A stretch of DNA of 64,000 nt from Bradyrhizobium sp. LTSP849 (lineage in GTDB: Bacteria > Pseudomonadota > Alphaproteobacteria > Rhizobiales > Xanthobacteraceae). The notes under the pieces were generated by a model. The model saw only the letters and a program-made list of their open reading frames with translations, had not been told where the DNA came from and did no database searches. Positions 24,059 to 43,498 of the stretch are shown here, one piece after another (the first letter of the stretch is position 1; every line of letters starts with the position of its first letter). The position numbers and the translations under genes are program-made. The stretch covers positions 186,001-250,000 of the forward strand of contig NZ_JYMR01000023.1 in assembly GCF_000938255.1 (NCBI RefSeq). Direction: 5' to 3'.

Positions 24059-24397
24059 ATGGTGGCAGGCGGCATTTCCATTCACGCGGTCGATGTTGCG
24101 AGCGGACGCCCGGCGCAGGGGCTGCGCGTCGAGATCTGGCGCATCGATCCCGACTCGGCGCGCATTGCCGACGGCAGGCTCGGCGCCAATGGTGTGCTCG
24201 ATCATCCCGTCGCGCAAGGCGCTGACGTCACGGCGGGCGAGTATGAGGTCCTGTTTCATCTCGGCGAGTTCTTTGCGGACCGCGACGGCTTCCTCACCGT
24301 GACGCCGTTCCGCTTCGGCATCAAGAACGTCGACGAGCATTTCCACCTGCCGCTGAAATTCACGCGTTGGGGCTATTCGCTGTTTCGCGGTGCCTGA
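24059..24397 (+). CDS. uraH: 5-hydroxyisourate hydrolase (transthyretin-like), atypical C-terminus
   Basis: Ring-opening of 5-hydroxyisourate in uric acid breakdown. The 112-residue protein has the family frame: ISIHAVDVASGRPAQ with H9, ADGR with R40, and HFHLPL with H96. The invariant C-terminal YRGS is changed to FRGA (residues 109-112). A strong GGGAGG ribosome-binding site precedes the ATG. No other urate-pathway gene is adjacent; the neighbouring MFS and amidase diverge from it. The altered tail makes the assignment slightly less certain than usual. Confidence 0.82.
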   Translation: MVAGGISIHAVDVASGRPAQGLRVEIWRIDPDSARIADGRLGANGVLDHPVAQGADVTAGEYEVLFHLGEFFADRDGFLTVTPFRFGIKNVDEHFHLPLKFTRWGYSLFRGA

Positions 24398-27879: not shown

Positions 27880-28742
27880 CACGCCCCTCCGTAGCCGCGC
27901 GACATGCGGCCGAGCGTGGTGAAGACGGAGACGACCGCGAGCACGGCGAGCAGGAAGATGATCGAGATCGCCGAGGCAAACGGCCAGTTCTGGAGTGTGG
28001 AGGCCTGCTGATAGAGATACATCGGCATGAACAGCATCTGCCCGCCGCCGATCAGCGACTGGGTGATGAAGGCGGTGATCGCGGCCGCATAGGTCAGCGT
28101 GCATCCGGCGATGACGCCGGGCAGCGACAGCGGCAGGGTGATCTTGAAGAAGCTGCGCCAGCTGCCGGCGCCGAGAGAGCAGGAGGCATCGTCGAGATTG
28201 GGATCGATCCGGCCGAGCGCGGTGATCAGCGGCAGCGTCATCAAGGGCATCTGCACCTGCGCCAGCGCAATCACCACGCCGAACTGGGTGTAGAGCAGCT
28301 TTAATGGCGTATCGATGATGCCGAGCGATTGCAGCGTCGCGTTGATGATGCCCTGGCGTCCGAGGATGACAATCCAGGCGAAGGTGCGGACCACGACGCT
28401 GGTCAGAAGGGGCAGCAGCACGATCAGGATGATGATGGTCTGAAGCCGCGGCCCGACCCGCTGATAGAGCCACGCGATGGGAAAGCCGAGCACGAGGCAG
28501 ACGGCCGTCACCTCGGCGCCTAACAGCAGCGTCGAGCCGAGCACACTGAGGCTGAAGGGGTCAGTGAGGAAGTGCAGGTACTGGCCGAGCCCCCAATGCA
28601 GCGCGGCCGTGTCGTTGTGCAGCGAGAGCCAGAGCAATTGCAGCAGCGGCGCGACGAAGAACACCAGGAAGAACAGCGCCAGCGGCGCTGCCAATCCCAT
28701 CCCGTAGGACGTCACGTCACGTGAGGCCGGTGCTGCGCCCAT
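27879..28742 (-). CDS. ABC transporter permease, spermidine/putrescine PotB type
   Basis: A 287-residue permease with about six helices and the EAA loop DASCSLGAGSWRSFFKITLP near residues 185-205. I chose the ATG at 28742, which has AAGGA 9 bases upstream; a TTG at 28748 is in frame. It pairs with the overlapping permease gene downstream and follows the binding-protein gene by 19 bases. Confidence 0.92.
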   Translation of the reverse strand: MGAAPASRDVTSYGMGLAAPLALFFLVFFVAPLLQLLWLSLHNDTAALHWGLGQYLHFLTDPFSLSVLGSTLLLGAEVTAVCLVLGFPIAWLYQRVGPRLQTIIILIVLLPLLTSVVVRTFAWIVILGRQGIINATLQSLGIIDTPLKLLYTQFGVVIALAQVQMPLMTLPLITALGRIDPNLDDASCSLGAGSWRSFFKITLPLSLPGVIAGCTLTYAAAITAFITQSLIGGGQMLFMPMYLYQQASTLQNWPFASAISIIFLLAVLAVVSVFTTLGRMSRGYGGA

Positions 28743-28761
28743 TGCCAAATCCTTCGAGCGT

Positions 28762-29808
28762 CTAGATCTTGATCTCGCGGTTGAAGCGCTCGATCCAGGC
28801 CGAGCGCTGCTCGTTGATCTTCTTCCAGTCCTGGAACACGAATTTCTGCTTCAGCTCGGCGGTGTCCTTGGCGAGCACGCGCGCGATCTCGCCGCCCATC
28901 GTCACCTTGGAATTGGTCGGCACGATCAAATAGGGCGGGTTCATCAGCGTGGTCTGCACTTCGGGCGTCAGTGACGCCTCGATCAGCTTGAACGCGAGCT
29001 CGCGGTTGGGCGAATTCTTGACGATGTGGATCGTGGTCTTGAAGGCGATCGCGCCTTCTTTCGGCGCCACGAACTCGACCGGCACGCCGCGCGCCTTCAG
29101 GATCTGGATGGCGTTGAAATTGCCGGGCGAGATGTCGATCTGGCCCTGCTGGAACAGGGTTGCGAGCGCGCCGGGGTTGGCCGCCACGGCAGCGAGATTG
29201 GGCTTGAGCTCCTCGATCGCCTTGAAGGCGGGATCGATATTGGCTTCAGAGCCGCCGCGCATCTTGGCAATCTCGACCAGCCAGCCGGTGCCGAGCGTCG
29301 AGTTGAGGTTGGTGATGCCGACGCGGCCCTTGAACTCGGGCTTCCACAGATCAGCCCAGGAGGTGGGCGGCGTCTTGATCGCTTCCGGATTGTAGGTGAG
29401 GCCGACAACCTGGAAGAACGGAGCGGGGCCCATCGGTTCCTGCGCCTCGGCGATCAGGTCCTTGTAATAGGCGCTCTTCTCGACCGGATAGGGCTCGGCG
29501 AGATCCTGGCCGATTGCGACCAGCGCCGGGCCGGGATCGTGCAGCATGACGTCGATCGGCGGATTGGCCTTTGCCGCATTCACCTTCGCGATCTGGTCGA
29601 CCGAGAGCATGGGGTCGAGCACGATCGCCGCATCCGCATTCGCCTTGCGGAACGCCGGCACCAGCACGGCCTTGTGCGCTTCCTCCCAGCTTCCGGTGAA
29701 GGTCGCAAACACCAGCGGACGGGCCTGGGCGTAGCTTAAGCCCGGAAACGCCTTCATGGCGCCGAGTGTGAGTGCGGTCGTCATCAGGCTTCGGCGGTTG
29801 AGGATCAT
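28762..29808 (-). CDS. Extracellular solute-binding protein, PotD-like
   Basis: A 348-residue periplasmic binding protein with a signal sequence (NRRSLMTTALTLGAMKAF, then SYAQA); the Arg pair raises the option of Tat export. The body has the family-1/PotD layout: VFATFTGSWEE, an LTYNPEAI hinge and TSWADLWKPEFKGRVG, the last common in polyamine and iron-type binding proteins. GGGAG lies 8 bases before the start. It is the binding component for the two permeases and the ATPase around it; the ligand is unknown. Confidence 0.92.
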   Translation of the reverse strand: MILNRRSLMTTALTLGAMKAFPGLSYAQARPLVFATFTGSWEEAHKAVLVPAFRKANADAAIVLDPMLSVDQIAKVNAAKANPPIDVMLHDPGPALVAIGQDLAEPYPVEKSAYYKDLIAEAQEPMGPAPFFQVVGLTYNPEAIKTPPTSWADLWKPEFKGRVGITNLNSTLGTGWLVEIAKMRGGSEANIDPAFKAIEELKPNLAAVAANPGALATLFQQGQIDISPGNFNAIQILKARGVPVEFVAPKEGAIAFKTTIHIVKNSPNRELAFKLIEASLTPEVQTTLMNPPYLIVPTNSKVTMGGEIARVLAKDTAELKQKFVFQDWKKINEQRSAWIERFNREIKI

Positions 29809-29821
29809 GTCGAACTCCCTG

Positions 29822-29863
29822 TGGACTGGATCTAAAGCGTTCTGGACTGGATCTAAAACGTTG
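29822..29863. repeat. 21-bp tandem duplication spanning the end of the ATPase gene
   Basis: Two adjacent copies of TGGACTGGATCTAAARCGTT (29822-29842 and 29843-29863) differ at two positions. The right copy contains the stop codon (29855-29853) and last codons of the PotA-type gene; the left copy repeats that stop just after it. Confidence 0.85.
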
Positions 29864-30947
29864 CGGGAAAAGCGTTGGCGAGCGATGGGGCGAGCGGCGC
29901 GAGCCGTACCGCCGCGCCGTTCTCCAGCGCGTGCGTCTCGCCGATGCGCGCCTGGGAGATTTTCACGCCGGAGCCATCTGCGGTCTTGATCTCGTGCACG
30001 ACGGTCGCACCCAGCGGCAGCGACATGCCGACCACGCCGGCAAAACCGGTCTCGTCGCCGACGAATTGCAGATGCTCTGGTCGGATGCAGACGGTGACGC
30101 GGCCACCTTCGGTGAGAGCGCCGCCCGCGGGCCGTGCGATGATCTCCGCGCCGGCATCGAGGCGCACTTTCGCAGCAGTGCGATCCGCCGACACCACTAT
30201 TCCGGGCATGCGGTTGCTGGAGCCGACAAACGTGTTCACGAACAGCGTCTGGGGCCGATCGTAAACGTCGGAGGGCGAGCCGAACTGTTCGAGCTTGCCG
30301 TGACTGAGCACGGCGACGCGGTCGGCCATCGACAGCGCCTCTTCCTGGTCGTGCGTCACGATCAGCGTCGTGATGCCGGAGACGCGTTGAAGCCGCTTGA
30401 CCTCGATCTGCATGTCGAGCCGCAAATTCTTGTCCAGCGCGGCGAAGGGCTCATCGAGCAGCAGGATCGACGGCTTGATCGCGAGCGCACGCGCGAGCGC
30501 GACGCGCTGCTGCTGGCCGCCGGAGAGCTGCCGCGGCAGCCGCTCCGCCATCGCCGGCAGCTGCACCAGCTCCAGCAGGCGCTGCGCCTCGCGCTGGCGC
30601 GTGGCCTTGTTGACGCCGCGCGCGGCGAGGCCATAGCCGACATTCTCACTGATCGAAAGATGCGGAAACAGCGCGTAATTCTGGAACACGATGCCGACGG
30701 CGCGGCGGTTCGGCGGCAGCGCATCGACGATGTCGTCGCCGATGATGATCCGCCCCTGCGTCTGCGCGATGAAGCCGGCGATGATCCGCAGCAGCGTCGT
30801 CTTGCCGCAGCCGGAGGGGCCGAGCAGGGCAATGATCTCGCCGCCCTTGATGTCGAGATTGATGTTTTGGACCGCCAGCGCACCGCTCGGATAGCGATGG
30901 GTGACGGCATCGACGACGAGCGATCGGCCGCTTTGCGCATCAGCCAT
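29853..30947 (-). CDS. ABC transporter ATP-binding protein, PotA type
   Basis: A 364-residue ATPase with Walker A GPSGCGKTT (near residue 43), Q-loop VFQNYALFPH, signature LSGGQQQR, Walker B ILLLDEPFAALD and the H-loop VTHDQEEA, followed by a TOBE domain (VCIRPEHLQF) as in PotA/FbpC. GGGAGG precedes the ATG. It lies upstream of the binding protein and permeases in the leftward operon and energises the uptake. Confidence 0.94.
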   Translation of the reverse strand: MADAQSGRSLVVDAVTHRYPSGALAVQNINLDIKGGEIIALLGPSGCGKTTLLRIIAGFIAQTQGRIIIGDDIVDALPPNRRAVGIVFQNYALFPHLSISENVGYGLAARGVNKATRQREAQRLLELVQLPAMAERLPRQLSGGQQQRVALARALAIKPSILLLDEPFAALDKNLRLDMQIEVKRLQRVSGITTLIVTHDQEEALSMADRVAVLSHGKLEQFGSPSDVYDRPQTLFVNTFVGSSNRMPGIVVSADRTAAKVRLDAGAEIIARPAGGALTEGGRVTVCIRPEHLQFVGDETGFAGVVGMSLPLGATVVHEIKTADGSGVKISQARIGETHALENGAAVRLAPLAPSLANAFPATF

Positions 30948-31052: not shown

Positions 31053-31802
31053 TCAGCTATCGCGATGCTCGAGCCGGGCGGCGAGCGCCCCGGCAAGACC
31101 GATGGTCGGCTTGGCGGCGGGCCGGCGGAACGTGCCCGCCGTCGCCTTGCGCAGGCGTAGCGCCACCAGCGCCTCGGCCTGCTTCACGGAGGCGATGACC
31201 TGATCGACGACGGGGACGGGGATCCGGTCGGCGACGCGCTCGGCAAGGCCTGAGAGTGGCGCGCCCGCAAAAATCAAAACATCGGCCTCGTTCTCGACGA
31301 TCGCGCGCTGCGCGAGAGCGACGAGCACGTCCTCCTTCTCGGTTCCGACCTCGGAGATCGCCTGGAACGGCGTATCGAGCATGCGGATACCGGCGCAGCG
31401 CTCCCACAGCCCGTGGGCGCGGACGCACTCTTCGTACCAGGGCCCCAACGCCTGGGCGAAGGTGACGATAGCGAAGCGGCGCCCGGCCATGCAGGCCGTC
31501 AGCATCGCGGCTTCCGCCATGCCGACCACGGGGATGTCGAAGGTTTCGCGCGCGGCGAACAGGCCGGGATCGCCGAACGCCGCGATGATCGCGGCGTCGA
31601 CATTGCGATGCTGCTCGGCCAGCATCTCCAGCGCGATGGCGCCGCCGATCTGCGCCTCGGTGCGCGTCGAAATGTAGGGCACGCCGCGGGATGCGGTGCA
31701 GGGGATCAGCTCGGTGCCGGGGGAAGCGGCCTGCTGCCCGACGCCCATCATCAGCCGGGTGACTTCGGTGCTGGTGTTCGGGTTGAGCAGGAGGAGCTTC
31801 AT
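31053..31802 (-). CDS. Asp/Glu/hydantoin racemase superfamily protein lacking both catalytic cysteines
   Basis: A 249-residue protein with the racemase fold opening MKLLLLNPNTSTEVT and the two usual active-site regions. In hydantoin racemases these contain cysteines near residues 76 and 181; here they read IIAAFGDPGL (A75) and VLIFAGAPLSGL (G180), so both nucleophilic cysteines are missing. Other cysteines (C35, C104, C126, C136) are not at those sites. It is two bases downstream of the GntR gene and 105 bases before the ATPase gene, so it belongs to the leftward operon. Racemase activity by the two-cysteine mechanism seems excluded; the true role is unknown. Confidence 0.85.
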   Translation of the reverse strand: MKLLLLNPNTSTEVTRLMMGVGQQAASPGTELIPCTASRGVPYISTRTEAQIGGAIALEMLAEQHRNVDAAIIAAFGDPGLFAARETFDIPVVGMAEAAMLTACMAGRRFAIVTFAQALGPWYEECVRAHGLWERCAGIRMLDTPFQAISEVGTEKEDVLVALAQRAIVENEADVLIFAGAPLSGLAERVADRIPVPVVDQVIASVKQAEALVALRLRKATAGTFRRPAAKPTIGLAGALAARLEHRDS

Positions 31803-31804
31803 CG

Positions 31805-32584
31805 TTATGCCGCCGTCTGCTTGGCTTGAGAGGTGGCGAGGACTTCGAGCAGGGCGGTGCCGGTGCGCCAGACATGGGCGCCGAGCAGGCGTCCGGCGGC
31901 TTCGCCGTCGCGGGCTTCGAGGGCGGCCAGAATATCGGCATGCTCGTCGACCGAATTGCTCCAGCGGCGGTCGGCGCCAAGCGCCAGATAGCGCGCGCGC
32001 TCGGCGCGGGAGATCAGCGTCTCGTGCGCCTCCCGCAGCGGCGTGTTGCGGGCCATGCGGACGATGGTGTTGTGGATCTCGCCATTGATGGCAAAGTAGT
32101 CGTCGAGCTTGCCGTTGCGATGATGACCCTCCATGCGGGTCTGAAGCGTGCGCAGGCGCGCAAGATCGCGCTCGGTCGCGCGCTCCGCGGCAAGTTCGGC
32201 GGCAAGCCGCTCGATCCCGGCCAGCGCCTCGAACAATTCCGAGATGCCCTCGACCGCGATGCCGGCAATGCGCGGGCTGCGGTTCGGCCGCAGCTCGATC
32301 AATCCTTCGGCCGCGAGCACCTTCATCGCCTCGCGCAGCGGCGTGCGCGATACGCCGAGCGACTTCGAGAGCTTGGTCTCCTGGGTCTGCGATCCCGGCG
32401 GCAACTCGCCGCGAATGATCATCGTCCGCATCCGCGCGGCGGCGCGCTCATGCAGGCCCATCCGCTTGAGTTTGGGCGACTTTCGTCCCTTCGGCGCTTC
32501 CGATTTTGGCTGCACGCGTGCCTCGCTTATCAAATTGATCTTAGCCGTTTTGGGCTCTTTGGCTTGCCCAAAATACCGACGCAT
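31805..32584 (-). CDS. GntR family transcriptional regulator (FCD type)
   Basis: A 259-residue regulator: a basic N-terminal tail, a winged helix at about residues 44-110 (LPPGSQTQETKLSKSLGVSR, TPLREAMKVLAAEGLIEL) and an alpha-helical FCD effector domain with the metal-site-like histidines in EIHNTIVRMA and DEHADILAAL. The start at 32584 has no good ribosome-binding site; M42 (32461) would still keep the whole DNA-binding domain. It heads the leftward operon and faces the rightward ABC operon across a candidate operator at 32615, so it probably controls both in response to a pathway metabolite. Confidence 0.92.
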   Translation of the reverse strand: MRRYFGQAKEPKTAKINLISEARVQPKSEAPKGRKSPKLKRMGLHERAAARMRTMIIRGELPPGSQTQETKLSKSLGVSRTPLREAMKVLAAEGLIELRPNRSPRIAGIAVEGISELFEALAGIERLAAELAAERATERDLARLRTLQTRMEGHHRNGKLDDYFAINGEIHNTIVRMARNTPLREAHETLISRAERARYLALGADRRWSNSVDEHADILAALEARDGEAAGRLLGAHVWRTGTALLEVLATSQAKQTAA

Positions 32585-32713: not shown

Positions 32714-33718
32714 ATGCGGACGAGTTTGCGACTGGGCCTCGTATTGATGGCAGCGATACTCGGTGGAAGCGATCTCGCCTCCGCGCAGACGGCGAAGATC
32801 AAGCTCGGTTACGCCAAATGCGCGCACTGCCTGCCGATGTCGCTGGTTCCGGGGCTGGCCAAGAATGTCGAGGTCGACGCGACCGGCTTCAACTCGGGCA
32901 ATGACGTGCTCACTGCCCTGATATCGAAGAGCATCGACGTCGCGCAGGTCACTTACCTCCACTACATCACGGCGCTCGACAAAGGTTTTGACGTCGTCGC
33001 CGTGTCGGGCCAGATCAACGGCGGCTCGGAATGTCTGTCGTCCACGAAGCTGAACCTTCCGCCTGATGACTGGACGGCGTTCAAGGCGATCGTTGCCAAG
33101 GGGAAGAGCGACGGTCAGCCGCTGAAGGTCGCGGCGTCCCGGGGCAACGCGCAGGACATCCATATGCGCGGCGCGTTCCTTAAGCAGGGTGTCGATCCCA
33201 ACAAGGACATCCAGTTCATCAACATTCCCAATCCATCCGACCATCTTGCGGCGTTGCAGCGCGGCGAGGTCGACATGATCTGCTCGGTCGAGCCGTTTGC
33301 CTCGCAGATCAGGCTCGCAGGCGCCGGCAAGCATTTTGTGCTGCCTTACGACCAAGCGGCAGGAAATCTGACCAACCTCATCGTCACCCGCTCGGACGTG
33401 ATCGCAAGCCAGCGCGCCGGCGTTCAGGGCATCGTCACCGCGGTGGTCGAGCTCGACAACAAGCTGATCGCCGACAAGTCCCTGTGGATCGACGTCATCA
33501 ACAAGCTCACCGGCCTCGACAAGACGGTCGCGACCGAGGCGCTGAAGAATGCCTCGCCGGATCCGGCGATCCATCGTTCGCAGACGCTCGCGATCGCCGC
33601 GATGATGCGCGACCTCAAATACATCTCGAAGGACGTCTCTGCGGAAGCGGAGAAGAACATGGACTATTCGTTCCTGGAGCAGGCCACGGGAAAAACCAAG
33701 AATGACCTCGGTTACTGA
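32714..33718 (+). CDS. ABC transporter substrate-binding protein, nitrate/sulfonate/taurine (SsuA/TauA/NMT1) type
   Basis: A 334-residue binding protein with a signal peptide (SLRLGLVLMAAILGGSDLASA), then KIKLGYAKCAHCLPMSLVPG and VDVAQVTYLHYITAL as in the NMT1/THI5-like group that binds sulfonates, nitrate or pyrimidine-like ligands. Unusually a CAHC pair sits near the mature N-terminus. GGAG precedes the start. Its 3' end overlaps the permease gene by 17 bases. With the enzymes downstream, a nitrogen heterocycle is the likely ligand (inference). Confidence 0.92.
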   Translation: MRTSLRLGLVLMAAILGGSDLASAQTAKIKLGYAKCAHCLPMSLVPGLAKNVEVDATGFNSGNDVLTALISKSIDVAQVTYLHYITALDKGFDVVAVSGQINGGSECLSSTKLNLPPDDWTAFKAIVAKGKSDGQPLKVAASRGNAQDIHMRGAFLKQGVDPNKDIQFINIPNPSDHLAALQRGEVDMICSVEPFASQIRLAGAGKHFVLPYDQAAGNLTNLIVTRSDVIASQRAGVQGIVTAVVELDNKLIADKSLWIDVINKLTGLDKTVATEALKNASPDPAIHRSQTLAIAAMMRDLKYISKDVSAEAEKNMDYSFLEQATGKTKNDLGY

Positions 33719-34553
33719 CGCAGCTCCAGCCAAGCCGGCGTTTCGGCTGACCCGGCTGTTTCAGGGGCTCGAGCGCGTTGTCGTTCCCGCGCTGCTGATC
33801 GCGGGCTGGGAGGCTTTTGCCCGCAGCGGCGTCCTGCCGCCGGCCCTGTTGCCGGCGCCGAGCGCGGTGCTGCATGCCCTCGGCGACTGGGTGTTCGGCT
33901 TCGACGAGACCACGCAGACCTATTCCGGGCATTGGCTGCGCGATGCGCTCGCCAGCGCCTTGCGCGTGTTCGCTGGCTTTGCGCTGGCGAGCCTGCTTGG
34001 AATCCTCGCCGGCGTCGCCATTGGCTGGTCGCGCCTGTTCGAGAAGACGCTGGAGCCGACGCTCCAGATGCTGCGTCCGATCCCGCCGGTGTCCTGGATT
34101 CCGCTCGCCATCATCTGGTTCGGCATCGCCGACAAGCCGGCGATCTTCCTCGTTTTCCTCGGCGCCTTCTTTCCGGTGCTGATGAACGCCATTCACGGTG
34201 TGAAGACCGTGGACCATAATCTCGTGCGCGCCGGCGCCATGATGGGCGCGAGCCAGCGGCAGATGCTGACCGACATCGTGCTGCCGGCGTCGTTACCCTC
34301 GATCTTCGCAGGCCTGCGCATCGCGGTCGGATCGGCGTGGATGCTGACGGTCACGGCCGAGATGGTCGCGGTCAAGAGCGGGCTCGGCTACGTCTTGTGG
34401 GATTCCTATTACTTCCTGCGCTACGACATCGTGCTCGCAGCAATGATCTCCATCGGGTTGCTCGGTTATCTCTCCGACCTCGGCCTTAAAGTCATCATGG
34501 CGCACACGCTGCGCTGGCAGGCGACAACCACCGTGCAGGGCAGGGCGGGCTGA
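33702..34553 (+). CDS. ABC transporter permease, SsuC/TauC type
   Basis: A 283-residue permease with about six helices and the conserved PPVSWIPLAIIWFGI and GASQRQMLTDIVLPASLP loop typical of nitrate/sulfonate-type permeases. It starts within the binding-protein gene, and its stop overlaps the ATPase start (TGATG), so the three components are coupled. Confidence 0.93.
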   Translation: MTSVTDAAPAKPAFRLTRLFQGLERVVVPALLIAGWEAFARSGVLPPALLPAPSAVLHALGDWVFGFDETTQTYSGHWLRDALASALRVFAGFALASLLGILAGVAIGWSRLFEKTLEPTLQMLRPIPPVSWIPLAIIWFGIADKPAIFLVFLGAFFPVLMNAIHGVKTVDHNLVRAGAMMGASQRQMLTDIVLPASLPSIFAGLRIAVGSAWMLTVTAEMVAVKSGLGYVLWDSYYFLRYDIVLAAMISIGLLGYLSDLGLKVIMAHTLRWQATTTVQGRAG

Positions 34554-35329
34554 TGGCGGCAATCGAGCTTCGCAACATCGTCAAGGTGTTTTCCGACAAG
34601 CGGCGCGGCCGCGACTTGCTGACGCTGGACAACATCAATCTCGACATCGAGGCGAATGATTTCGTCTGCCTGCTCGGCCCATCCGGCTGCGGCAAGTCGA
34701 CCCTGCTCAACATCATCGCCGGCTTCGAGCAGGCGACCTCCGGGCGCACGCTGGTCGACGGCAAGCAGGTGGAGCGGCCGGGATCGGACCGCGGCGTGGT
34801 GTTCCAGCAGCCGACTCTGATGCCGTGGCTGACGGCGATCGACAACGTCGCCTTCCATCTCAAGCTCAAGGGCGTCGGCAAGGCCGAGCGGCACCATCGC
34901 GCCATGGAGTTCATCGATCTCGTGGGCTTGCGCGGCTTCGAGCATCATCACCCCTCCGAGCTGTCCGGTGGCATGAACCAGCGGGTGGGGATCGCCCGCG
35001 CGCTGCTGATGAACCCGAGCGTCATCCTGATGGACGAGCCGTTTGCGGCACTCGACGCCCAGACCAAGCTTGAAATGCAGGAGGAGCTGGTCGCGATCTG
35101 GCAGAAGCGCCGCTGCACCATCGTGTTCGTCACCCACAGCGTCGATGAGGCGCTGGTGCTCGGCAACAAGATCGTGGTGATGACGAAAAGACCGGGCCGG
35201 ATTCGCGAGGCCGTCAATTTCGACATGCCGCGCCCGCGGGACATCACCAGCCCCGAATTCAATGATGCAAAGCGCCGTATTCTCACGCTCATTCGCGAGG
35301 AATCGACGCGCCTCGCGCAGGCGTCCTAG
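34553..35329 (+). CDS. ABC transporter ATP-binding protein, SsuB/TauB type
   Basis: A 258-residue ATPase: Walker A GPSGCGKST, Q-loop VFQQPTLMPWLTA, signature ELSGGMNQRVGIAR, Walker B VILMDEPFAALD and VTHSVDEAL. The LSGGMNQR variant is typical of the nitrate/taurine group. It completes the rightward transporter, and the amidohydrolase gene starts two bases later. Confidence 0.94.
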   Translation: MAAIELRNIVKVFSDKRRGRDLLTLDNINLDIEANDFVCLLGPSGCGKSTLLNIIAGFEQATSGRTLVDGKQVERPGSDRGVVFQQPTLMPWLTAIDNVAFHLKLKGVGKAERHHRAMEFIDLVGLRGFEHHHPSELSGGMNQRVGIARALLMNPSVILMDEPFAALDAQTKLEMQEELVAIWQKRRCTIVFVTHSVDEALVLGNKIVVMTKRPGRIREAVNFDMPRPRDITSPEFNDAKRRILTLIREESTRLAQAS

Positions 35330-35331
35330 CC

Positions 35332-36723
35332 GTGGAAGGCGCAGCGGCACCGCGCACCTGTGATCTCCTGGTGAAGGGCGGACTTGTCGTCACCCTGGAC
35401 GAAGCCGATCGCATCATTGCGCGCGGAGCCGTGGCCGTCGCAGACGGCCGCATCGTCGACGTCGGCGATGACGACGAGATCGCGACACGCTGGTCGCCGG
35501 CGCGCACCATCGATGCGCGCAACCGTCTGGTGATGCCGGGCCTGGTCAACGTTCACAATCATACGCCGCTGATGATCACCCGCGGGATGATCGAGGATCT
35601 CGGCTTTGCGCCGATGTTCACGGCTGGAATTCCGCAGGGACATCGGCTGACCGAGGGCGAGGCCGCCGCCTTGTCGCGGCTCGGCGTCTACGAAATGTTG
35701 CGCACGGGTTCGACGACGATTGTCGATTTTTACCGCTACCCGGAAGCGCTGGCCAAGGCTCATTCCGAACTTGGCTCGCGTGCGGTCATCGCCGGCCGGA
35801 TCCATGATGCCGATCCGGAGGCGCTTACCCGCAAGCGCTACGAATATTCGGCCGCGATCGGTGCGGCGAGCATCGCCGAGAACGTCGCGCTGATCGAGCG
35901 CTGGCAAGGCCATGACAATGGCCGGATCAGGTGCGATTTTGCCCCGCATGCGCCGGATACCTGCTCGGACGATCTGCTGCGTGAGGTCGCCGGTCTCGTG
36001 CAACGATACGGCGGCAATGTTCACACCCATGTCTGTCAGAGCCCGATCGAGGTGGCCCAGACACAGGCCCGTAGCGGCCGGTCGCCGGTCGAGGTGCTCG
36101 AGGCTGCGGGTCTGCTCAACCAGAGCCTGATTGCGGCGCATTGCATCCACGTGACGGCCGGCGACGAGGCCGCTCTTGGGGCAGCGAAGGCGACCATGGC
36201 CTATACGCCGATCGGCAATGCCAAAACCGGCCGGATCGCACCGGCGGCGTCCATCGAGCGCCAAGGTGCCCGCATGGCGTTATGCACTGATACGTTTTCC
36301 GGTGACATGTTCGAGGCGATGCGTTGGGCTGTCGCAATGCAGCGGATACGTGGTGAGAAAGACGGACTGAACGCGCGCTCGGCGATTCGCTGGGCGACGC
36401 AGGGCGGAGCGGAAGCGCTTGGGCTGGGTGACCAGATTGGGTCGATCACCTGCGGAAAAAAAGCGGATCTGGTCTTGCTCGACCTGTCCGAACCGACGCT
36501 TGCCCCCATTATCGATGGATTTGGTGCCCTGGTGTGGTCGGGTAACGGCAACAATGTCCGGACTGTCATCGTCGATGGCCGTATCGTGATTGAGGAGGGA
36601 CGCTTGCTGAACGCCGACGGTGCTGAACTGGTCCGTGAAGCGCAGAAGGTTGCAGAGGCGCTGTGGGCCAGACACAATGTCACTCCCGTCACGCAAGGCC
36701 ATCGAAGCGCCGCTCAGGGATGA
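35332..36723 (+). CDS. Amidohydrolase, ATZ/TRZ (chlorohydrolase/deaminase-like) family with altered active site
   Basis: A 463-residue metal-dependent hydrolase starting with GTG two bases after the ATPase stop. Metal ligands are visible: H75/H77 in VHNHTP, H231/H233 in HTHVCQS, H270/H273 in AHCIHVT and D320 in CTDTFSG. In most deaminases of this family the third residue after the second HxH is glutamate (HxHxxE); here it is Q236. The context with a dihydropyrimidinase and an ABC importer suggests action on a cyclic amine or amide, but the missing glutamate argues against assuming ordinary deamination. The stop overlaps the next start (ATGA). Confidence 0.88.
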   Translation: MEGAAAPRTCDLLVKGGLVVTLDEADRIIARGAVAVADGRIVDVGDDDEIATRWSPARTIDARNRLVMPGLVNVHNHTPLMITRGMIEDLGFAPMFTAGIPQGHRLTEGEAAALSRLGVYEMLRTGSTTIVDFYRYPEALAKAHSELGSRAVIAGRIHDADPEALTRKRYEYSAAIGAASIAENVALIERWQGHDNGRIRCDFAPHAPDTCSDDLLREVAGLVQRYGGNVHTHVCQSPIEVAQTQARSGRSPVEVLEAAGLLNQSLIAAHCIHVTAGDEAALGAAKATMAYTPIGNAKTGRIAPAASIERQGARMALCTDTFSGDMFEAMRWAVAMQRIRGEKDGLNARSAIRWATQGGAEALGLGDQIGSITCGKKADLVLLDLSEPTLAPIIDGFGALVWSGNGNNVRTVIVDGRIVIEEGRLLNADGAELVREAQKVAEALWARHNVTPVTQGHRSAAQG

Positions 36724-37460
36724 CCGTGATGCGCAAACGTCTCGGCATGATCACGCCGTCCTCCAATTCGGTGCTCGAGCCCGTCACCAGCGCCATGCTG
36801 CATGGCGTGGCCGGCATCACCGCACATTTCTCGCGCTTCCGCGTCACCGAGATTGCGCTGGACGCCGCGGCGCTGAGCCAGTTCGACGCATCGGCAATGC
36901 TGCCGGCGGCGGATTTGCTGGCGGACGCCAAGGTCGACGCCATTGCCTGGAACGGCACTTCGGCCAGCTGGCTCGGCATCGGCCGCGACAGGAGCCTTGG
37001 TGCGGCCATCACGGAGCGCACCGGCGTACCCGCAACGACGTCCACGCTCGCCTGCATCGATGCCGCCCGCGCGCTCGGCGCCAAGCGCGTTGGTCTCGTT
37101 TCGCCCTATACGGACGATGTGCAGCGGCGGATCGGCGACGTCTGGGCCGAGGAGGGCATCGCCCCGCATGCCGAGCGCCACCTCGGCCTGCGCGATAATT
37201 TCTCCTTCGGCGAGGTTAAGCCAGCGACGATCGCCGACATGATCCGCGCGGTGGCGGCCGAAGGCGCCGACGCTGTCGTTATCCTCTGCACCAATCTCGA
37301 TGGTGCGGCGCTCGCCGCCTCGCTCGAACGGGAATTGGATATCGCCGTGCTCGACTCGGTCGCGGTCACGCTGTGGCGAACCCTTGGTCTTGCCGGCGGC
37401 GACACCAGAGCCCTTGCGGAGTGGGGCCGGATCTTCCAGACATCAGCGGTCATCAAGTGA
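36720..37460 (+). CDS. Arylmalonate decarboxylase / maleate isomerase family enzyme
   Basis: A 246-residue member of the Asp/Glu racemase superfamily. The pattern follows arylmalonate decarboxylase rather than maleate isomerase: the first active-site loop is NGTSASW (G79-T80-S81) with Gly instead of Cys, SPYTDDV supplies Y130, and a single cysteine C190 lies in VILCTN. In arylmalonate decarboxylase the equivalents are G74, T75, S76, Y126 and C188. TTSTLACIDAARALGAKRVG also follows that family. It is coupled to the amidohydrolase (ATGA) and precedes the dihydropyrimidinase, so a malonate-type acid from ring opening may be decarboxylated; this is inference. Confidence 0.82.
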   Translation: MTVMRKRLGMITPSSNSVLEPVTSAMLHGVAGITAHFSRFRVTEIALDAAALSQFDASAMLPAADLLADAKVDAIAWNGTSASWLGIGRDRSLGAAITERTGVPATTSTLACIDAARALGAKRVGLVSPYTDDVQRRIGDVWAEEGIAPHAERHLGLRDNFSFGEVKPATIADMIRAVAAEGADAVVILCTNLDGAALAASLERELDIAVLDSVAVTLWRTLGLAGGDTRALAEWGRIFQTSAVIK

Positions 37461-37471
37461 CGGAGACATAA

Positions 37472-38881
37472 GTGACGCAGCTTGATCTCGCCATTCGCGG
37501 CGGCACCATCGTGACGGCCAGCGACGAGTTTCGTGCCGATATCGGCATTCGCGACGGCCGTATCGTCAGCATCGCCGATCACCTCGAGGGCGCGGCGCGC
37601 GAAATCGACGCGACGGGGCTGCTCGCGCTGCCGGGCGGCATCGACAGCCACGTCCACATCTCGCAAGCCTCCGGTCCCGACGTTGTGATGGCCGACGACT
37701 TTGCCTCGGCGACGCGCTCTGCTGCCGCCGGCGGCAACACCATGGTGCTGCCTTTTGCGCTTCAGGAGAAGGGCACGTCGCTGCGCGCTTGTGTCGAGAG
37801 CTACCGCAAGCTTGCGGAGGGCGAGTGCTACATCGATACGGCGTTCCATCTCATCATCTCTGACCCGACCGCCGTCGTGCTCGGGCAGGAGCTGCCGGCA
37901 CTGGTCAAGGACGGCTACACCTCGTTCAAGGTGTTCATGACCTATGACGACCTCGTGCTCAGCGACAAGCAGCTGCTCGAAGTGTTCGAGGTCGCGCGCC
38001 GCGAAGAGGCGCTGGTGATGGTTCATTGCGAGGGCTACGACGCCATCCGCTTCCTCACGACTAAGCTCGAACGCGAAGGCCATATCGCGCCCTATTATCA
38101 CGGCGTGTCGCGGCCCCAGGCCGTCGAGCGCGAGGCGACGCATCGCGCCATCAGCCATGCCGAAATCGTCGGCGTGCCCATCATGATCGTCCATGTCTCC
38201 GGGCGTGAGGCGATGGAGCAGGTGCGCTGGGCCCAGCAGCGCGGATTGCCGGTGCATGCGGAGACCTGTCCGCAATACATCACGCTGACGGCCGATGACA
38301 TGAAGGGCCTGAACATGGACATCAGCGGCGCGAAATATGTCTGCTCGCCGCCGCCGCGCGATGCCGATAGCCAGCAGGCGATCTGGGAAGGCATCACCAC
38401 CGGTGTGTTTCAGACCTTCTCGTCCGACCACTGCCCGTTCCGCTACGACGATCCCAAGGGCAAGCTGACGCCGAATTCCCGCACCTCGTTCCGCTGGGTG
38501 CCGAACGGAATTCCCGGGGTCGAGACGCGGCTGCCGATCCTGTTCTCGGAGGGCGTGTCGAAGGGACGGATCAGCTTGCAAAAATTCGTCGAGCTGACCG
38601 CGACCAATCATGCCCGCATCTACGGCCTCTATCCGCGCAAGGGCTCGATCGGCGTCGGCTTCGACGCCGATATCGTGCTGTGGGATTCGAAGTTGAAGAA
38701 GAAGATTCAGCAGGCCGATCTGCACCACGGTGCCGACTACACGCCCTGGGAAGGTTTTGACGTCACCGGCTGGCCCGTCACCACGGTCGCGCGGGGCCGG
38801 GTGGTGTACGAGCACGGCAAGATCGTCGGCGACAAGGGCGCCGGCGAGGTCCTGAGCCGCGGCAAGTCGAGCCTGGTGTGA
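37472..38881 (+). CDS. hydA: Dihydropyrimidinase / D-hydantoinase
   Basis: Zinc-dependent cyclic amidase opening dihydropyrimidines or 5-substituted hydantoins. The 469-residue protein, with GTG start, has the complete binuclear site: H60 and H62 (SHVHI), the carboxylated lysine K153 (TSFKVFMTYD), H185 (VMVHCEG), H241 (IVHVSG) and D319 (SSDHC), in the spacing of known dihydropyrimidinases. It is the last gene of the rightward operon and is followed by a strong palindrome. It should convert the pathway's cyclic amide to an N-carbamoyl acid; no carbamoylase is next to it, but one begins at 63464. Confidence 0.94.
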   Translation: MTQLDLAIRGGTIVTASDEFRADIGIRDGRIVSIADHLEGAAREIDATGLLALPGGIDSHVHISQASGPDVVMADDFASATRSAAAGGNTMVLPFALQEKGTSLRACVESYRKLAEGECYIDTAFHLIISDPTAVVLGQELPALVKDGYTSFKVFMTYDDLVLSDKQLLEVFEVARREEALVMVHCEGYDAIRFLTTKLEREGHIAPYYHGVSRPQAVEREATHRAISHAEIVGVPIMIVHVSGREAMEQVRWAQQRGLPVHAETCPQYITLTADDMKGLNMDISGAKYVCSPPPRDADSQQAIWEGITTGVFQTFSSDHCPFRYDDPKGKLTPNSRTSFRWVPNGIPGVETRLPILFSEGVSKGRISLQKFVELTATNHARIYGLYPRKGSIGVGFDADIVLWDSKLKKKIQQADLHHGADYTPWEGFDVTGWPVTTVARGRVVYEHGKIVGDKGAGEVLSRGKSSLV

Positions 38882-39873: not shown

Positions 39874-40362
39874 TTATTTCGTGGCCGACACGCCGCGATC
39901 GGCCTGCCGGGTCAGGATCAGCGAGGTGTGGCGGGCCGCGGTCACCACCTCGTCGCGCTGGTTGAGGAGGTCGAGCGTCTCGATGACGATGCCGCGTTCG
40001 GGATTCCTGCTCGGCCGCTTCTCGACAAAGCAGAAGCGCACGCGCAAGCGGTCGCCGGCGACGATGGGTCCCTTGAACCGCACCTCGTCCCAGCCGAGTG
40101 AGGCGACCGAGGTCTCCTCATACAGCTTCAGCTCCGACTTCAGCCCTTCCATCAGTGACAGGCCGAACAGGCCGTGGCCGATCACCGCGGGGAAGCCACG
40201 CGAGCGCGCATAGTCTGAATCGATATGAAGCGGGTGGTGATCGCGCGTGACGTCGGCGAAAGCTGCGATGTCGGCCTCCGTCACAATGTGTGCGGCGGTC
40301 TCGAACTCCGCGCCGAGCGCGATGTCCTCATAACGGAGATTGATCGATGCAGCGGCGTCCAT
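39874..40362 (-). CDS. MaoC-like hot-dog dehydratase
   Basis: A 162-residue single-domain (R)-specific enoyl-CoA hydratase-type protein. The hydratase motif is intact: FADVTRDHHPLHID with D41 and H46, followed by GFPAVIGHG. It is nine bases downstream of the CoA-transferase gene, and with the acyl-CoA dehydrogenase it would hydrate the unsaturated thioester. A cytoplasmic role is expected, as no signal peptide is seen. Confidence 0.92.
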   Translation of the reverse strand: MDAAASINLRYEDIALGAEFETAAHIVTEADIAAFADVTRDHHPLHIDSDYARSRGFPAVIGHGLFGLSLMEGLKSELKLYEETSVASLGWDEVRFKGPIVAGDRLRVRFCFVEKRPSRNPERGIVIETLDLLNQRDEVVTAARHTSLILTRQADRGVSATK

Positions 40363-40371
40363 ACGTGTTCC

Positions 40372-41955
40372 TCAGGCAACCTTGCGCGGCCGGGCCGGCA
40401 TCGCCATGAAACTCTGCGCGATCCCCATCGGCCCGGAGCGGAAGATGCGCGGGTCCATATCCCTGAGTTGCGGGCTGATGCGCGGCCGGAAACCCATATG
40501 CGCGAGGATGTCCTCCTCCAGGCGAACGCCCGGCGCGATCTCGGTCAGCGTCACGCTGCTGTTCTCCAGCTCGAACACGGCGCGCTCGGTGACGTAGCTC
40601 ACATGCTGGCCGCGTTGTGCGGCAAGCAACGCGCTAAAACTGATCTGGCCGACCTGGGCGACGAATTTTCGGAAGGCGCCATCGCGCCGGATTGCGAGAC
40701 GGCCGTTCTCGACTCCGATGTCGAATTTGCCGCCGGTCATGGTGCCGCTGAAGATCAGCCGCCGCGCGTTCTGCGTGATGTCGATGAAGCCGCCGGAGCC
40801 GTCGCGGCGGTCGCCGAAGCGGGTGACGTTGACGTTGCCGGCCTCGTCCACTTCCGCGAAGGAGAGGAACGCACAGGACAGCCCGCCGCCGTCGTAGAAG
40901 TCGAACTGGTAGGCCTGGTCGAGAATGACGCGCGGATTGATGGCGGTGCCGAATTCGCGCGCATGGCCGGGCACGCCGCCGACCACGCCGGATTCAACTG
41001 TCAAGGTGATCAGGTCGGAGATGCCTTCCTCAGCCGCGACATTAGGGATCATTGCGGAGATGCCGACGCCGAGATTGACGACGTCGCGCGGGCGCAGCTC
41101 GAAGGCGGCGCGGCGCGCGATCACCCGCCGCTCGGTGAGCGGATCCGGCGCGATCATCGCCACGGGCACGCGCGTCTCGCCGCAGCGCGCCGGATCATAG
41201 ACGGTCCCGTAGGTCTGCATCTGGTCGGGTTCGAGCACGACGTGATCGATCAGGAAGCCGGGGATCTTGACCATCTGCGGATGGACCGAGCCGCGCTTCA
41301 CGATGCGCTTGACCTGGCAGATCACGATGCCGCCTGCATTGTGCACGGCCTGCGCGATCGAGAGATCCTCGCGCGTCGTGCCCTCGTGCTCCATGCTGAT
41401 ATAGCCGTCTTCGTCCGCCGATGTGCCGCGGATGATGGCGACATCAGGCGGGGTGGGCACGCGGTAGAGCAGCCACGACTGGCCGTGCAGCTCGAGCAGG
41501 TCGACCAGCGGCGCCGTGGTGCGCGCGTTCATGCGGCCACCGTCCTGGCGCGGGTCCATGTAGGTGTTGAGGCCGACATGGGTGAGGACGCCCGGATGTT
41601 TCGCCGCCATGGCGCGGCAGAGCTGGCTCATCACGCCTTGCGGAAAATTATAGGCGTCGATCAACTCGTCACGGACGAGGCGCATGAACGGCACCTGGAG
41701 GCCGAAATTGCCGCCGATCACGCGCGCGATCAGGCCTTCATGGGCGAGGTGACACAGGCCCTTCTCGGTCACGGCGCCGACGCCGGTGATGTTGATCAGC
41801 GTCAGCCCGTGCGGGCCCTGGCCGCCGAGGAAGCGCTGCTCCAGCGCGTCGAGGATGGCTTCGGCTGCGCCCGTGCCGCCATTGCCGCCGACGATCAGCG
41901 TGTCGGCATCGCGGATGAGACCAGCGGCCTGTGCCGCGGTGATGATGCTCAGCAT
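40372..41955 (-). CDS. Acyl CoA:acetate/3-ketoacid CoA-transferase (family I, YdiF/propionate CoA-transferase type)
   Basis: A 527-residue fused alpha-beta CoA-transferase. The N-terminal half has GGNGGTGAAEAI and the C-terminal half has the catalytic motif LTVESGVVGG with glutamate E321, which forms the gamma-glutamyl-CoA intermediate. It probably activates the pathway acid by exchange with acetyl- or succinyl-CoA. It lies between the dehydrogenase (16-base gap) and the MaoC gene. Confidence 0.93.
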   Translation of the reverse strand: MLSIITAAQAAGLIRDADTLIVGGNGGTGAAEAILDALEQRFLGGQGPHGLTLINITGVGAVTEKGLCHLAHEGLIARVIGGNFGLQVPFMRLVRDELIDAYNFPQGVMSQLCRAMAAKHPGVLTHVGLNTYMDPRQDGGRMNARTTAPLVDLLELHGQSWLLYRVPTPPDVAIIRGTSADEDGYISMEHEGTTREDLSIAQAVHNAGGIVICQVKRIVKRGSVHPQMVKIPGFLIDHVVLEPDQMQTYGTVYDPARCGETRVPVAMIAPDPLTERRVIARRAAFELRPRDVVNLGVGISAMIPNVAAEEGISDLITLTVESGVVGGVPGHAREFGTAINPRVILDQAYQFDFYDGGGLSCAFLSFAEVDEAGNVNVTRFGDRRDGSGGFIDITQNARRLIFSGTMTGGKFDIGVENGRLAIRRDGAFRKFVAQVGQISFSALLAAQRGQHVSYVTERAVFELENSSVTLTEIAPGVRLEEDILAHMGFRPRISPQLRDMDPRIFRSGPMGIAQSFMAMPARPRKVA

Positions 41956-41971
41956 GAGTGCACGCGTCCCA

Positions 41972-43114
41972 TCATGCGGCCTCCTTCTCGACCTGGCGGG
42001 CGATGATCAGCCGCTGGATCTGGTTGGTGCCCTCGTAGATCTGGGCGAGCCGCACGTCGCGGAACAGCCGCTCGATGCGGTACTCGCGCGAGTAGCCGTT
42101 GCCGCCGTGGATCTGGAGCGCATTGGAGACGTGCTTCATTGCCATGTCGGTCGTGAACAGTTTTGCCTGCGCCGCCTCCTTGGCGATCGGCTCGCCGGCG
42201 TCATGCAGCCGTGCGGCGTGATGGATGAGAAGGCGCGCGGCGGCGATGTCGGTCGACATGTCCGCCAGCATGAACTGCACCGCCTGGAAGCCAATGATGG
42301 CCTGGCCGAACTGCTTGCGGTCCTTTGCATAGGCGGTGGCATCCTCGAATGCCGCCTGCGCCATGCCGAGCGCCATCGAGGCCATCATCAGCCGGCTGAA
42401 GTTGAAATTGCTCATGGCCATCTTGAAGGCCTGGTTCTCTGGCCCCATCAGGCTGTCGGCCGGCAGCTGCACGTCGGAGAAGGTGATCTGGCAGTCTTCG
42501 AGGCCGTGCATGCCGAGAAGCTCTTCGGTCTTGCCGCGGGCGATGCCGGGCAGGGCGCCGTCGACGAGGAGACAGGAGATCGCGCGGTGGCCCGCATCCG
42601 CGCCGGTGCGCGCGAACACCATGATGCGGTCGGCGACGCCGCCGAGCGTCACCCAGGCCTTGGTGCCGTTGAGCCGCCAGCCAGTGCCTTCGCGCACCGC
42701 ATGGGTGCGGATGCCCGCAACATCGGAGCCGTGGTCTGGCTCGGAGACCGCGGTGGCGGGAACGATGTCGCCACTGAGAATCTTGGGGATCAGCGCCTTG
42801 TGCGCGTCGGTGCCGTGATGGTCGAAGAACAGCACCGCCTCGACCGGAATCGCAAAAGCATTGGCGACGGCGCCGGAGCAGCGCGCCAATTCCTCCATCG
42901 CGATGCAGGCCGCGACCGCATCGAGGCCGGCGCCGCCCGCGCCTTCGCGCAGGCAAATGCCGAACAGGCCGAGATCGGCCATGCCCTTGTAAAGCGCGCG
43001 ATCAAAACGGTCCTCGCGATCAATGGTGGCTGCGCGCGGCAGAATTTCAGTCTGCGCGAAGCGACGGGCGGTCTCGCGCAGGGCCTTCTGGTCTTGGCTG
43101 TAAAAGCGGTCCAT
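41972..43114 (-). CDS. Acyl-CoA dehydrogenase
   Basis: A 380-residue FAD-dependent dehydrogenase. Typical blocks are AVSEPDHGSD, GTKAWVTLG, MASMALGMAQAAFED, DRKQFGQAI, QIHGGNGYSREY and RDVRLAQIYEGTNQIQ, in which E361 is the expected catalytic base. It introduces an alpha,beta double bond in the CoA thioester made by the neighbouring CoA-transferase. The tautomerase gene ends 15 bases upstream. Confidence 0.94.
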   Translation of the reverse strand: MDRFYSQDQKALRETARRFAQTEILPRAATIDREDRFDRALYKGMADLGLFGICLREGAGGAGLDAVAACIAMEELARCSGAVANAFAIPVEAVLFFDHHGTDAHKALIPKILSGDIVPATAVSEPDHGSDVAGIRTHAVREGTGWRLNGTKAWVTLGGVADRIMVFARTGADAGHRAISCLLVDGALPGIARGKTEELLGMHGLEDCQITFSDVQLPADSLMGPENQAFKMAMSNFNFSRLMMASMALGMAQAAFEDATAYAKDRKQFGQAIIGFQAVQFMLADMSTDIAAARLLIHHAARLHDAGEPIAKEAAQAKLFTTDMAMKHVSNALQIHGGNGYSREYRIERLFRDVRLAQIYEGTNQIQRLIIARQVEKEAA

Positions 43115-43129
43115 GGCTCGTGTCTTCCG

Positions 43130-43498
43130 TCAGTCGCTGGCAAGCTTGGAATCGTGGGCAACTTCGCTCATGTCGCGATCGAGGAAATAGACGGCGACAT
43201 CGTCGCCCGGCACTCCGTAGGCGCTGCATACGCCGCGCGTTAGCGCGATGGCCGCAGCGCGGCGCTCGGCCTCGCTGCGTCGGAATGCGTGGACCTTGAG
43301 CAGGATGCGCATGCGGGCGTCCTGAGGGCCAAATTCGCCGGCATGGGCGTAGTCGTCGGGCGAGATCGGGAGGAAATAGAGCGTGACCGTATCCGCAGTG
43401 ACGCCGAACGCCGACATCAGGCCGTCGGTCACAGACCTCGCCAGCGCGGCCTTGCGCTGCGGCGGAACTTGCGGGGCGAGCACTTCGACATAGGGCAT
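43130..43498 (-). CDS. Tautomerase superfamily protein, double-length 4-oxalocrotonate tautomerase type
   Basis: A 122-residue protein that begins MPYVEVL, so the catalytic Pro1 is exposed after Met removal. The first half follows 4-oxalocrotonate tautomerase (ALARSVTDGLMSAFGV, FLPISPDDYAHAG); the second half repeats the fold (ILLKVHAFRRSEAERRAAAI, AYGVPGDDVAVYFLD) but without its own proline, as in fused cis-CaaD or CHMI-like members. It would interconvert keto/enol or double-bond isomers in the pathway. It follows lacI by three bases. Confidence 0.85.
   Translation of the reverse strand: MPYVEVLAPQVPPQRKAALARSVTDGLMSAFGVTADTVTLYFLPISPDDYAHAGEFGPQDARMRILLKVHAFRRSEAERRAAAIALTRGVCSAYGVPGDDVAVYFLDRDMSEVAHDSKLASD

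Follow-up and report, generated by a model that had tools for sequence, protein, structure and literature searches.

The gene at positions 36720-37460 (plus strand) of a 64,000-nucleotide stretch of Bradyrhizobium sp. LTSP849 DNA (assembly GCF_000938255.1, contig NZ_JYMR01000023.1, positions 186,001 to 250,000; this whole stretch is referred to here as the window) encodes a one-cysteine protein of the branch of the Asp/Glu racemase superfamily that holds arylmalonate decarboxylase (AMDase), maleate isomerase, and EutA, as assigned from its 246-residue open reading frame (ORF), profile matches, residue conservation, and an AlphaFold2 model. The protein belongs to a distinct and well-supported subfamily of this branch (the clade). 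The original prediction, made from the DNA alone, described an enzyme with the AMDase active-site pattern; the real finding, above that residue match, is the neighbourhood in which genes of the clade occur. Here, it is tentatively proposed that the protein is a cofactor-free decarboxylase that stands in for UraD, the OHCU decarboxylase, in the catabolism of a urate-like compound. The observations on which this proposal is based are the residues of the protein, its clade, its gene neighbourhood, a link to a divergent gene like that of hydroxyisourate hydrolase (HIUase), and the alternation of clade genes with uraD beside that gene.

Relatives of the protein were gathered at E 0.001, a threshold that yields matches in 130 of the 297 genomes of the order, near and distant relatives together; 80 of 86 related loci were kept, 67 of which (L033-L099) are titled Bradyrhizobium except for one Bradyrhizobiaceae metagenome-assembled genome and one Frankia. 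By profile, the clade (111 distinct sequences, mostly Bradyrhizobium near-copies) is set apart from 52 other relatives, with a lowest clade score of 263 bits and a highest score among the others of 121 bits; a plasmid-borne member added later scores 259 bits. G79, T80, W84, G86, Y130, N160, C190, T191, N192, and D212 are invariant in all 111 sequences, S81 is present in 110, and N16, R39, and Q54 are each present in 110 with a gap in the remaining one. In the translation of the window gene, G79-T80-S81, Y130 (its sole tyrosine), and C190 are accompanied by N16, R39, Q54, W77, N160, T191, N192, and D212, and by a second cysteine, C112. The position of C112 is Cys in 67 of the 111 sequences and Leu, Phe, or another residue elsewhere, with Leu the most frequent (19) among 33 spread members of the clade. 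C190 is therefore the only conserved cysteine of the clade. Both P13 S14 and C190-T191-N192 occur in 33 of 33 aligned members. Selenocysteine was considered and rejected: one in-match TGA is reported in four relatives, the tblastn stretches L016, L024, L026, and L028 are open, and the TGA was taken as a terminal stop.

As had been claimed, G79-T80-S81, Y130, and C190 pair in the phmmer alignment with G74-T75-S76, Y126, and C188 of Bordetella AMDase (3dg9). Four of these five matches (T, S, Y, and C) are superfamily-wide, T80 being found in 47, S81 in 43, Y130 in 49, and C190 in 46 of the 52 non-clade relatives, as is R39 in 44. G79 alone separates the clade from its two-cysteine relatives, in which this site is mostly Cys (45 of 52, with Gly in 3). 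A cysteine at this first site, named beforehand as grounds for refutation, was looked for, and Gly was found in all 111 clade sequences. The clade forms one group (SH-aLRT 99) in a tree of 79 rows, four AMDases form another (99), and with the G79 columns included the two are sisters (86). When the columns around G79 were removed (66 rows), the two groups stayed apart (support 99 for the clade and 100 for the AMDases), and neither a union of the clade with the AMDases (p-AU 0.80) nor one with the maleate-isomerase group (p-AU 0.86) was rejected, in tests where the constrained tree in both cases beat the quick free tree, so that the search was shallow, and where the maleate-isomerase group was defined after the first tree. 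G79 may thus have been inherited from an ancestor shared with the AMDases or may have arisen twice, as the trees fit either history.

Genes of the clade lie among a recurring set of hydrolases and related genes, comprising dihydropyrimidinase, PuuE-type allantoinase, amidase, deaminase-type amidohydrolase, HIUase, or a cysteine-less racemase homologue (hereafter the hydrolase set). A total of 71 non-redundant contexts were compared (82 were read, 81 of them with a clade gene), a neighbour being a gene within 9 kb that scores at least 80 bits to a reference protein; the reference proteins themselves came from clade neighbours, which biases the counts toward finding such neighbours. GntR regulators were found in 46 contexts, amidase in 34, dihydropyrimidinase in 29, the racemase homologue in 27, ATZ/TRZ-type amidohydrolase in 22, PuuE-type allantoinase in 8, and HIUase in 6, with at least one member of the hydrolase set in 61. 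When 46 clade contexts were compared with 40 arbitrary stretches, taken mostly from the same genomes, a member of the set was present in 37 versus 1 (amidase 23:1, racemase homologue 15:0, dihydropyrimidinase 14:0, amidohydrolase 13:0, PuuE-type 5:0, and HIUase 5:0); SDR genes were present in 8 versus 8. Around non-clade relatives, sampled from other genomes of the class, no member of the set was present in 20 contexts. The expectation that the operon context would be informative is thus borne out. Such neighbours accompany the clade gene in Bradyrhizobium, Methylobacterium, Azospirillum, Paraburkholderia, Klebsiella, Paracoccus, Arthrobacter, and on a Leptolyngbya plasmid, and the transporters beside it vary (ABC, MFS, or TRAP). 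For the clade gene of a Burkholderia glumae plasmid, the neighbours seen were limited to a regulator and an MFS transporter.

In the window, the next gene of the operon (37472-38881, plus strand) encodes a dihydropyrimidinase / D-hydantoinase (PRK13404, 731.7 bits against a cut-off of 647), which adjoins the clade gene in most of the Bradyrhizobium loci compared. The start of the clade gene is overlapped by a gene for an ATZ/TRZ-type deaminase-family amidohydrolase (35332-36723, plus strand; family scan), found in the same place in just two of the Bradyrhizobium loci searched (L053 and L063). An amidase of the amidase-signature family (21491-22858, minus strand) was likewise assigned by family scan. 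The Asp/Glu "hydantoin racemase"-like protein (31053-31802, minus strand; Pfam) has Ala where allantoin racemase 3qvj has its catalytic C79 and C184, and 73 of 77 aligned homologues, that of the window included, have Ala at the first site and Ala or Gly at the second. A two-cysteine mechanism is impossible for a homologue lacking both residues, which makes it a second cluster enzyme of other chemistry. Cysteine-less racemase homologues were found in Pseudomonadota and on an Arthrobacter plasmid. As an obligatory partner of the clade gene this homologue was rejected, the link being partial (a clade gene lies within 20 kb of 16 of its 44 close homologues).

A HIUase-like gene lies at 24059-24397 (plus strand). 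Its product is divergent, with Val in place of the Arg of the GR motif and FRGA in place of the C-terminal YRGS, both His being kept, and scores 73.8 bits against a TIGR02962 cut-off of 87.45. The canonical HIUase of the same genome scores 116.9 bits to PF00576, as compared with 85 for the HIUase-like protein, and its gene adjoins the only uraD match of the genome, on another contig; a search with one uraD query found none in the window. In kpHIUH, the GR-motif Arg (Arg41) is reported to anchor and polarise the scissile carbonyl (PMC8272043). This Arg is missing from all 26 HIUase-like genes and present in all five canonical HIUases compared, and the HIUase-like genes group in a single clade, distinct from the canonical ones (support 100/100). 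This HIUase paralogue family without the substrate-binding Arg is likely a ring hydrolase for another compound.

Among the 297 genomes of the order, 19 loci are close to the HIUase-like protein of the window (at least 50% identity and at least 103 bits), the next-best HIUase having 42% identity and 89.5 bits. Eleven of the 19, four of them in Bradyrhizobium, have a clade gene no more than 14 kb away, whereas none of the next 81 listed HIUases has one within 20 kb (Fisher p 5e-10, loci not independent). Six of the other eight (L316-L321) have uraD within 5 kb, plus LysR and TctA; one (L322) has a cysteine-less relative of the clade protein, and one (L323) is a 6-kb contig. Twelve plasmid records share at least 50% identity, and ten of these, nine from Azospirillum and one from Defluviimonas (L179), carry a clade gene at a distance of at most 14 kb; the layout of the window recurs in large part in Azospirillum brasilense Sp7. 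On a Paracoccaceae plasmid, uraD is next to the HIUase-like gene, and the twelfth record, from Methylobacterium aquaticum (L332), holds a cysteine-less relative. These two Methylobacterium relatives (L322 and L332; ORFs 1820-3196 and 13729-15156) have WNATRG and WSTNL, so that Ala stands at the G79 site and Ser at the C190 site. They lie near a PotABC-type transporter, an amidase, and the HIUase-like gene, such that the place is kept and the cysteine lost. On the HIUase-like tree (29 rows and 118 columns, with L043 and L327 dropped and rows with both or neither partner uncounted), the partner label changes at least three times, or twice without row L328, whose label was set by hand from a clade gene 13.3 kb away and no uraD in the stretches examined. 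In a sample of 162 genomes of the class (E 1e-25), one HIUase-like locus was found besides that of the window (G388), and here the HIUase-like gene, the clade gene, and a dihydropyrimidinase gene follow one another in this order on one strand, the first two adjoining. The steps of urate breakdown are catalyzed in the order HIUase, UraD, and allantoinase, and the matching gene order was counted in favour of the proposed replacement of UraD.

A hydrolase of a urate-like ring needs a decarboxylase next, and this need, the alternation of clade gene with uraD, and the Gly and single proton-donor Cys shared with AMDase together favour decarboxylation of an OHCU-like acid. We infer decarboxylation, the order of the steps, and the roles of the named residues as follows. 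The carboxylate and the ring or ureido groups of the substrate would be held by N16, R39, N160, and Y130; CO2 would leave, and the resulting enolate, held in the oxyanion site formed by G79-T80-S81 and T191, would be protonated from one side by C190. In the pathway envisaged, the HIUase-like protein would hydrolyze a ring, possibly after the action of a deaminase, the enzyme encoded at 36720-37460 would decarboxylate the product in the place that UraD has in urate breakdown, the dihydropyrimidinase would open the resulting hydantoin-like compound, and the amidase would follow. Where loci lack a HIUase-like gene, the substrate may come from another step, or the enzyme may do something else. Since the HIUase-like partner has lost its substrate-binding Arg, 5-hydroxyisourate itself is unlikely to be the substrate. 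Barbiturate, orotate, creatinine, hydroxymethylpyrimidine, methylurates, and maleimide were weighed from chemistry alone, and the evidence chose none of them. Three cluster members thus represent diverged forms of enzymes connected with urate/allantoin breakdown, and a methylated version of the urate-breakdown pathway is reported to occur in caffeine breakdown (PMC4408171).

With slightly more reserve, the clade enzyme is put forward as a non-homologous replacement of OHCU decarboxylase that operates with a HIUase lacking the substrate-binding Arg and with dihydropyrimidinase in a pathway for a urate-like compound that was not found described; within the open-licence literature, no paper on this cluster was found among the matches listed. 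The likeness to UraD (PF09349) would lie in the pathway place and in the alternation near the HIUase-like gene, whereas no homology to it was found: PF09349 was not among the Pfam matches of the protein at E 0.001, which are Amdase and Asp_Glu_race and nothing else. AMDases are described as valued biocatalysts with a metabolic function that is little known (Maimanakos 2016; PMC4996985). If the proposal is correct, an AMDase-like enzyme would gain a natural role, showing what chemistry the fold serves in nature, the UraD step would have a second, unrelated solution, and many genes labelled "aspartate/glutamate racemase family" would gain a testable function. It would also point to an N-heterocycle that is imported and broken down by soil and root bacteria.

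Several observations weigh against a replacement of UraD. The partner changes rest on a tree of 118 columns; moreover, L179 has both uraD and a clade gene near one HIUase-like gene, and L240 also has uraD, with canonical HIUases. HIUase is within 9 kb in just 6 of the 71 non-redundant clade contexts, dihydropyrimidinase (29) and amidase (34) being commoner partners, and 10 of the 71 hold none of the hydrolase set. Similarly, a divergent HIUase lies within 20 kb at 11 of 54 clade places and is lacking at 43, and that of the window is 12.7 kb from the clade gene and in another transcription unit. Further, the pocket with which AMDase expels CO2 is absent (L40 is replaced by R39, V156 by N160, and Y48 by L47), and in an AMDase variant hydrogen bonds to both carboxylates are suggested to raise the barrier to decarboxylation (JACS 2025, PMC12576825).

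That the protein is an AMDase-type enzyme, as originally predicted, stands with regard to the fold, which is that of AMDase and maleate isomerase, and to the Gly at the first site; it does not stand with regard to family membership. To phmmer, AMDase 3dg9 (E 6.8e-22) is nearer in the Protein Data Bank (PDB) than maleate isomerase 4fq7 (E 1.2e-15), and the Pfam Amdase score of 86 bits is above the gathering score of 25.9, as is that of a cysteine-less paralogue (L002, 70 bits). The NCBIfam model for AMDase (NF052327), however, gives 83.2 bits against a cut-off of 225, and two relatives above that cut-off (L143 and L252) have GTS and CGG. Twelve criteria are reported to define AMDase (Maimanakos 2016; PMC4996985), and at most five of these are found in the protein, namely T75/S76, Y126, V43, and G74 with C188 (criterion 10), with M159 conservatively replaced by Phe. 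The dioxyanion-hole T75 S76 and Y126 (criteria 2 and 3) are present as T80 S81 and Y130, but most non-members keep these too. Gly189 and ILLSCGGL (criteria 4 and 12) are absent, with C190-T191-N192 instead, and in place of P14 P15 and LMGTSLSF (criteria 1 and 11) are P13 S14, placed by motif beyond the span of the phmmer alignment, and AWNGTSAS. The pocket residues L40, V43, Y48, V156, and M159 (criteria 5-9) correspond to R39, V42, L47, N160, and F163 by the phmmer alignment and sequence mapping, so that apart from the kept V43 and the conservative Phe the hydrophobic pocket is lost overall. The pairing of L40 with R39 rests on the phmmer alignment and on equal spacing from the PS/PP motif, as the N-terminal part is out of register, with a 7-residue gap, in the profile-profile alignment to AMDases.

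Given Arg39 and Asn160 in the pocket, turnover of arylmalonates appears unlikely, and decarboxylation of another acid is plausible. For annotated AMDases without the hydrophobic pocket, arylmalonate activity is described as highly unlikely, with one gene confirmed (PMC4996985). In the same source, a mandelate-racemase/muconate-lactonizing gene is reported in 61% of AMDase loci, and the annotations of the plasmid stretches examined around clade genes name no such product. Thus, despite the G-T-S, Tyr, and Cys match, the Pfam score, and the sister relationship in one tree, it is very improbable that the protein is a true arylmalonate decarboxylase with alpha-aryl or alpha-alkenyl malonates as substrates, given also that with the G79 columns out kinship to AMDase has no better support than kinship to maleate isomerase. 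With AMDase (EC 4.1.1.76; Bordetella, 3dg9/3ip8; NF052327; PF17645) the protein shares a fold (Z up to 32.0), the first-site Gly, Thr-Ser, Tyr, and one catalytic Cys; it differs in Arg39, Asn160, Leu47, and Thr191 for Leu40, Val156, Tyr48, and Gly189, in PSSN for PPA, in its separate clade, and in its neighbours. Filing as an arylmalonate decarboxylase was rejected on the NF052327 score, the pocket, and the criteria.

The likeness to maleate isomerase is as close. A profile search of the PDB gave maleate isomerase 4fq7 first (1.5e-21) and AMDase next (1.1e-20). The AlphaFold2 model (18-sequence alignment; mean pLDDT 92.9, pTM 0.90) aligned in VIA-align with maleate isomerases 4fq5 (Z 32.6, root-mean-square deviation 1.7, 237 aligned) and 2xed (Z 32.5), AMDases 3ixl (Z 32.0, deviation 1.9, 230 aligned) and 3dg9 (Z 31.4), and allantoin racemase (Z 18.9). 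The structure-based comparison recommended in the original prediction therefore supports a shared fold without a preference for AMDase; the modelled structure is a tie, and fold and tree are about equally near both enzymes. Maleate isomerase holds its substrate by the Asn of PSSN, a Tyr, and a second Asn, and N16 (in PSSN), Y130, and N160 align with these in 4fq7. In the profile alignment, 4fq7 has Cys at both sites, in agreement with the original statement that maleate isomerases carry two. The clade thus resembles maleate isomerase (Pseudomonas putida Iso, 4fq5/4fq7; Nocardia, 2xec) in fold, PSSN, Arg39, Tyr130, Asn160, and the second Cys, and differs in the first, which is Gly in every clade member found and led to rejection of a filing as maleate isomerase.

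The main alternative, judged unlikely, is a maleate-isomerase-type enzyme without the nucleophilic Cys that acts after dihydropyrimidinase on a ureido (di)carboxylic acid. The chemistry that goes with it would have C190 take or give the alpha proton and the oxyanion site hold an enediolate, with the ureido group eliminated or a double bond moved. Besides the conserved PSSN with N16, R39, Y130, and N160, the top profile match, and the tied Z scores, this alternative draws on the greater frequency of dihydropyrimidinase than of HIUase among the neighbours and on small sets such as Arthrobacter L174, in which a transporter, a regulator, the cysteine-less racemase homologue, dihydropyrimidinase, and the clade gene occur with no carbamoylase named beside them. 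It leaves the alternation with uraD and the invariant AMDase-like Gly unexplained. With regard to EutA, TIGR02990 is the best NCBIfam score of the protein, at 99.5 bits, yet the cut-off is 318, and a relative above it (L113) has Cys at both sites. A filing as EutA was rejected on this score; no ectoine gene is named among the annotated clade-gene neighbours examined.

The place of the protein in the allantoin-racemase superfamily, a cysteine-less racemase homologue in the same cluster, and neighbours of hydantoin type could also fit an enzyme that epimerises or racemises hydantoins or ureido acids by a one-base mechanism, in concert with that homologue. Such an activity is quite improbable: allantoin and hydantoin racemases have two catalytic cysteines where the protein has one, the pair of the two-cysteine Asp/Glu racemases being absent, and the related epimerase OpaE is reported to need both (PMC12661438), one of which is missing in every clade member found. 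Slightly less improbable is that the protein catalyzes some other reaction, or serves as a binding protein, within this catabolic cluster. In Methylobacterium (L322 and L332) the gene place persists with the G79 and C190 sites altered; against this stands the invariance of the candidate catalytic residues across clade members of Pseudomonadota, Actinomycetota, and a cyanobacterial plasmid. Decarboxylation in place of UraD remains the preferred reading.

The rest of the cluster consists largely of transport and regulatory genes. On the plus strand, an NMT1-type ABC transporter (32714-35329) precedes the amidohydrolase, the clade gene, and dihydropyrimidinase, and is encoded by genes for an NMT1_2/SsuA-type substrate-binding protein (32714-33718), a permease (33702-34553), and an ATPase (34553-35329), each assigned by family scan. 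A GntR/FCD regulator (31805-32584, minus strand; family scan) is divergent from the operon that begins at 32714. Also on the minus strand are genes for an ABC ATPase (29853-30947), labelled PotA from its ORF, homologues in related loci, and annotation in Azospirillum, where the block matching this region is annotated as an ABC transporter; a PotD-like substrate-binding protein (28762-29808), from its ORF and the recurrence of the same family in related contexts; a PotB-like permease (27879-28748), from ORF and gene order; and a PotC-like permease (27064-27882), from the same evidence, its start inferred from the frame as the listed ORF is longer. An MFS transporter (22839-24035, minus strand) was assigned by place, from its ORF, the Azospirillum annotation, and homologues in six contexts. 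Minus-strand genes at 39874-43498 (a MaoC hydratase, a CoA-transferase with a weak malonate-decarboxylase-alpha match, and acyl-CoA dehydrogenase-like and tautomerase-like genes) form a separate acyl-CoA operon that accompanies the cluster in four Bradyrhizobium loci (L036, L047, L048, and L087).

Clade-gene layouts vary across Bradyrhizobium loci, with or without the NMT1-type transporter, and two clade genes are present in some genomes (G035:C1:4330736 and 4434575; L037 and L045; L053 and L055). Locus L043 (JAUEPE010000001.1), titled Frankia sp. RB7, is a Bradyrhizobium locus with 91-96% identity to the window proteins, and its title may be wrong. A second conserved setting of clade genes (L186, L225, L229, L231, L248, and L250) combines an HpaB-type monooxygenase, a PuuE-like allantoinase, an ATZ/TRZ-type amidohydrolase, an amidase, and the clade gene, and a plasmid copy of it also has a gene annotated as 8-oxoguanine deaminase. 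The paralogue L002, at G000:C51:163420-163956 of the LTSP849 genome, is a second Amdase-Pfam homologue whose two cysteine sites hold Met and Gly, and RidA and GntR homologues lie near it (L251).

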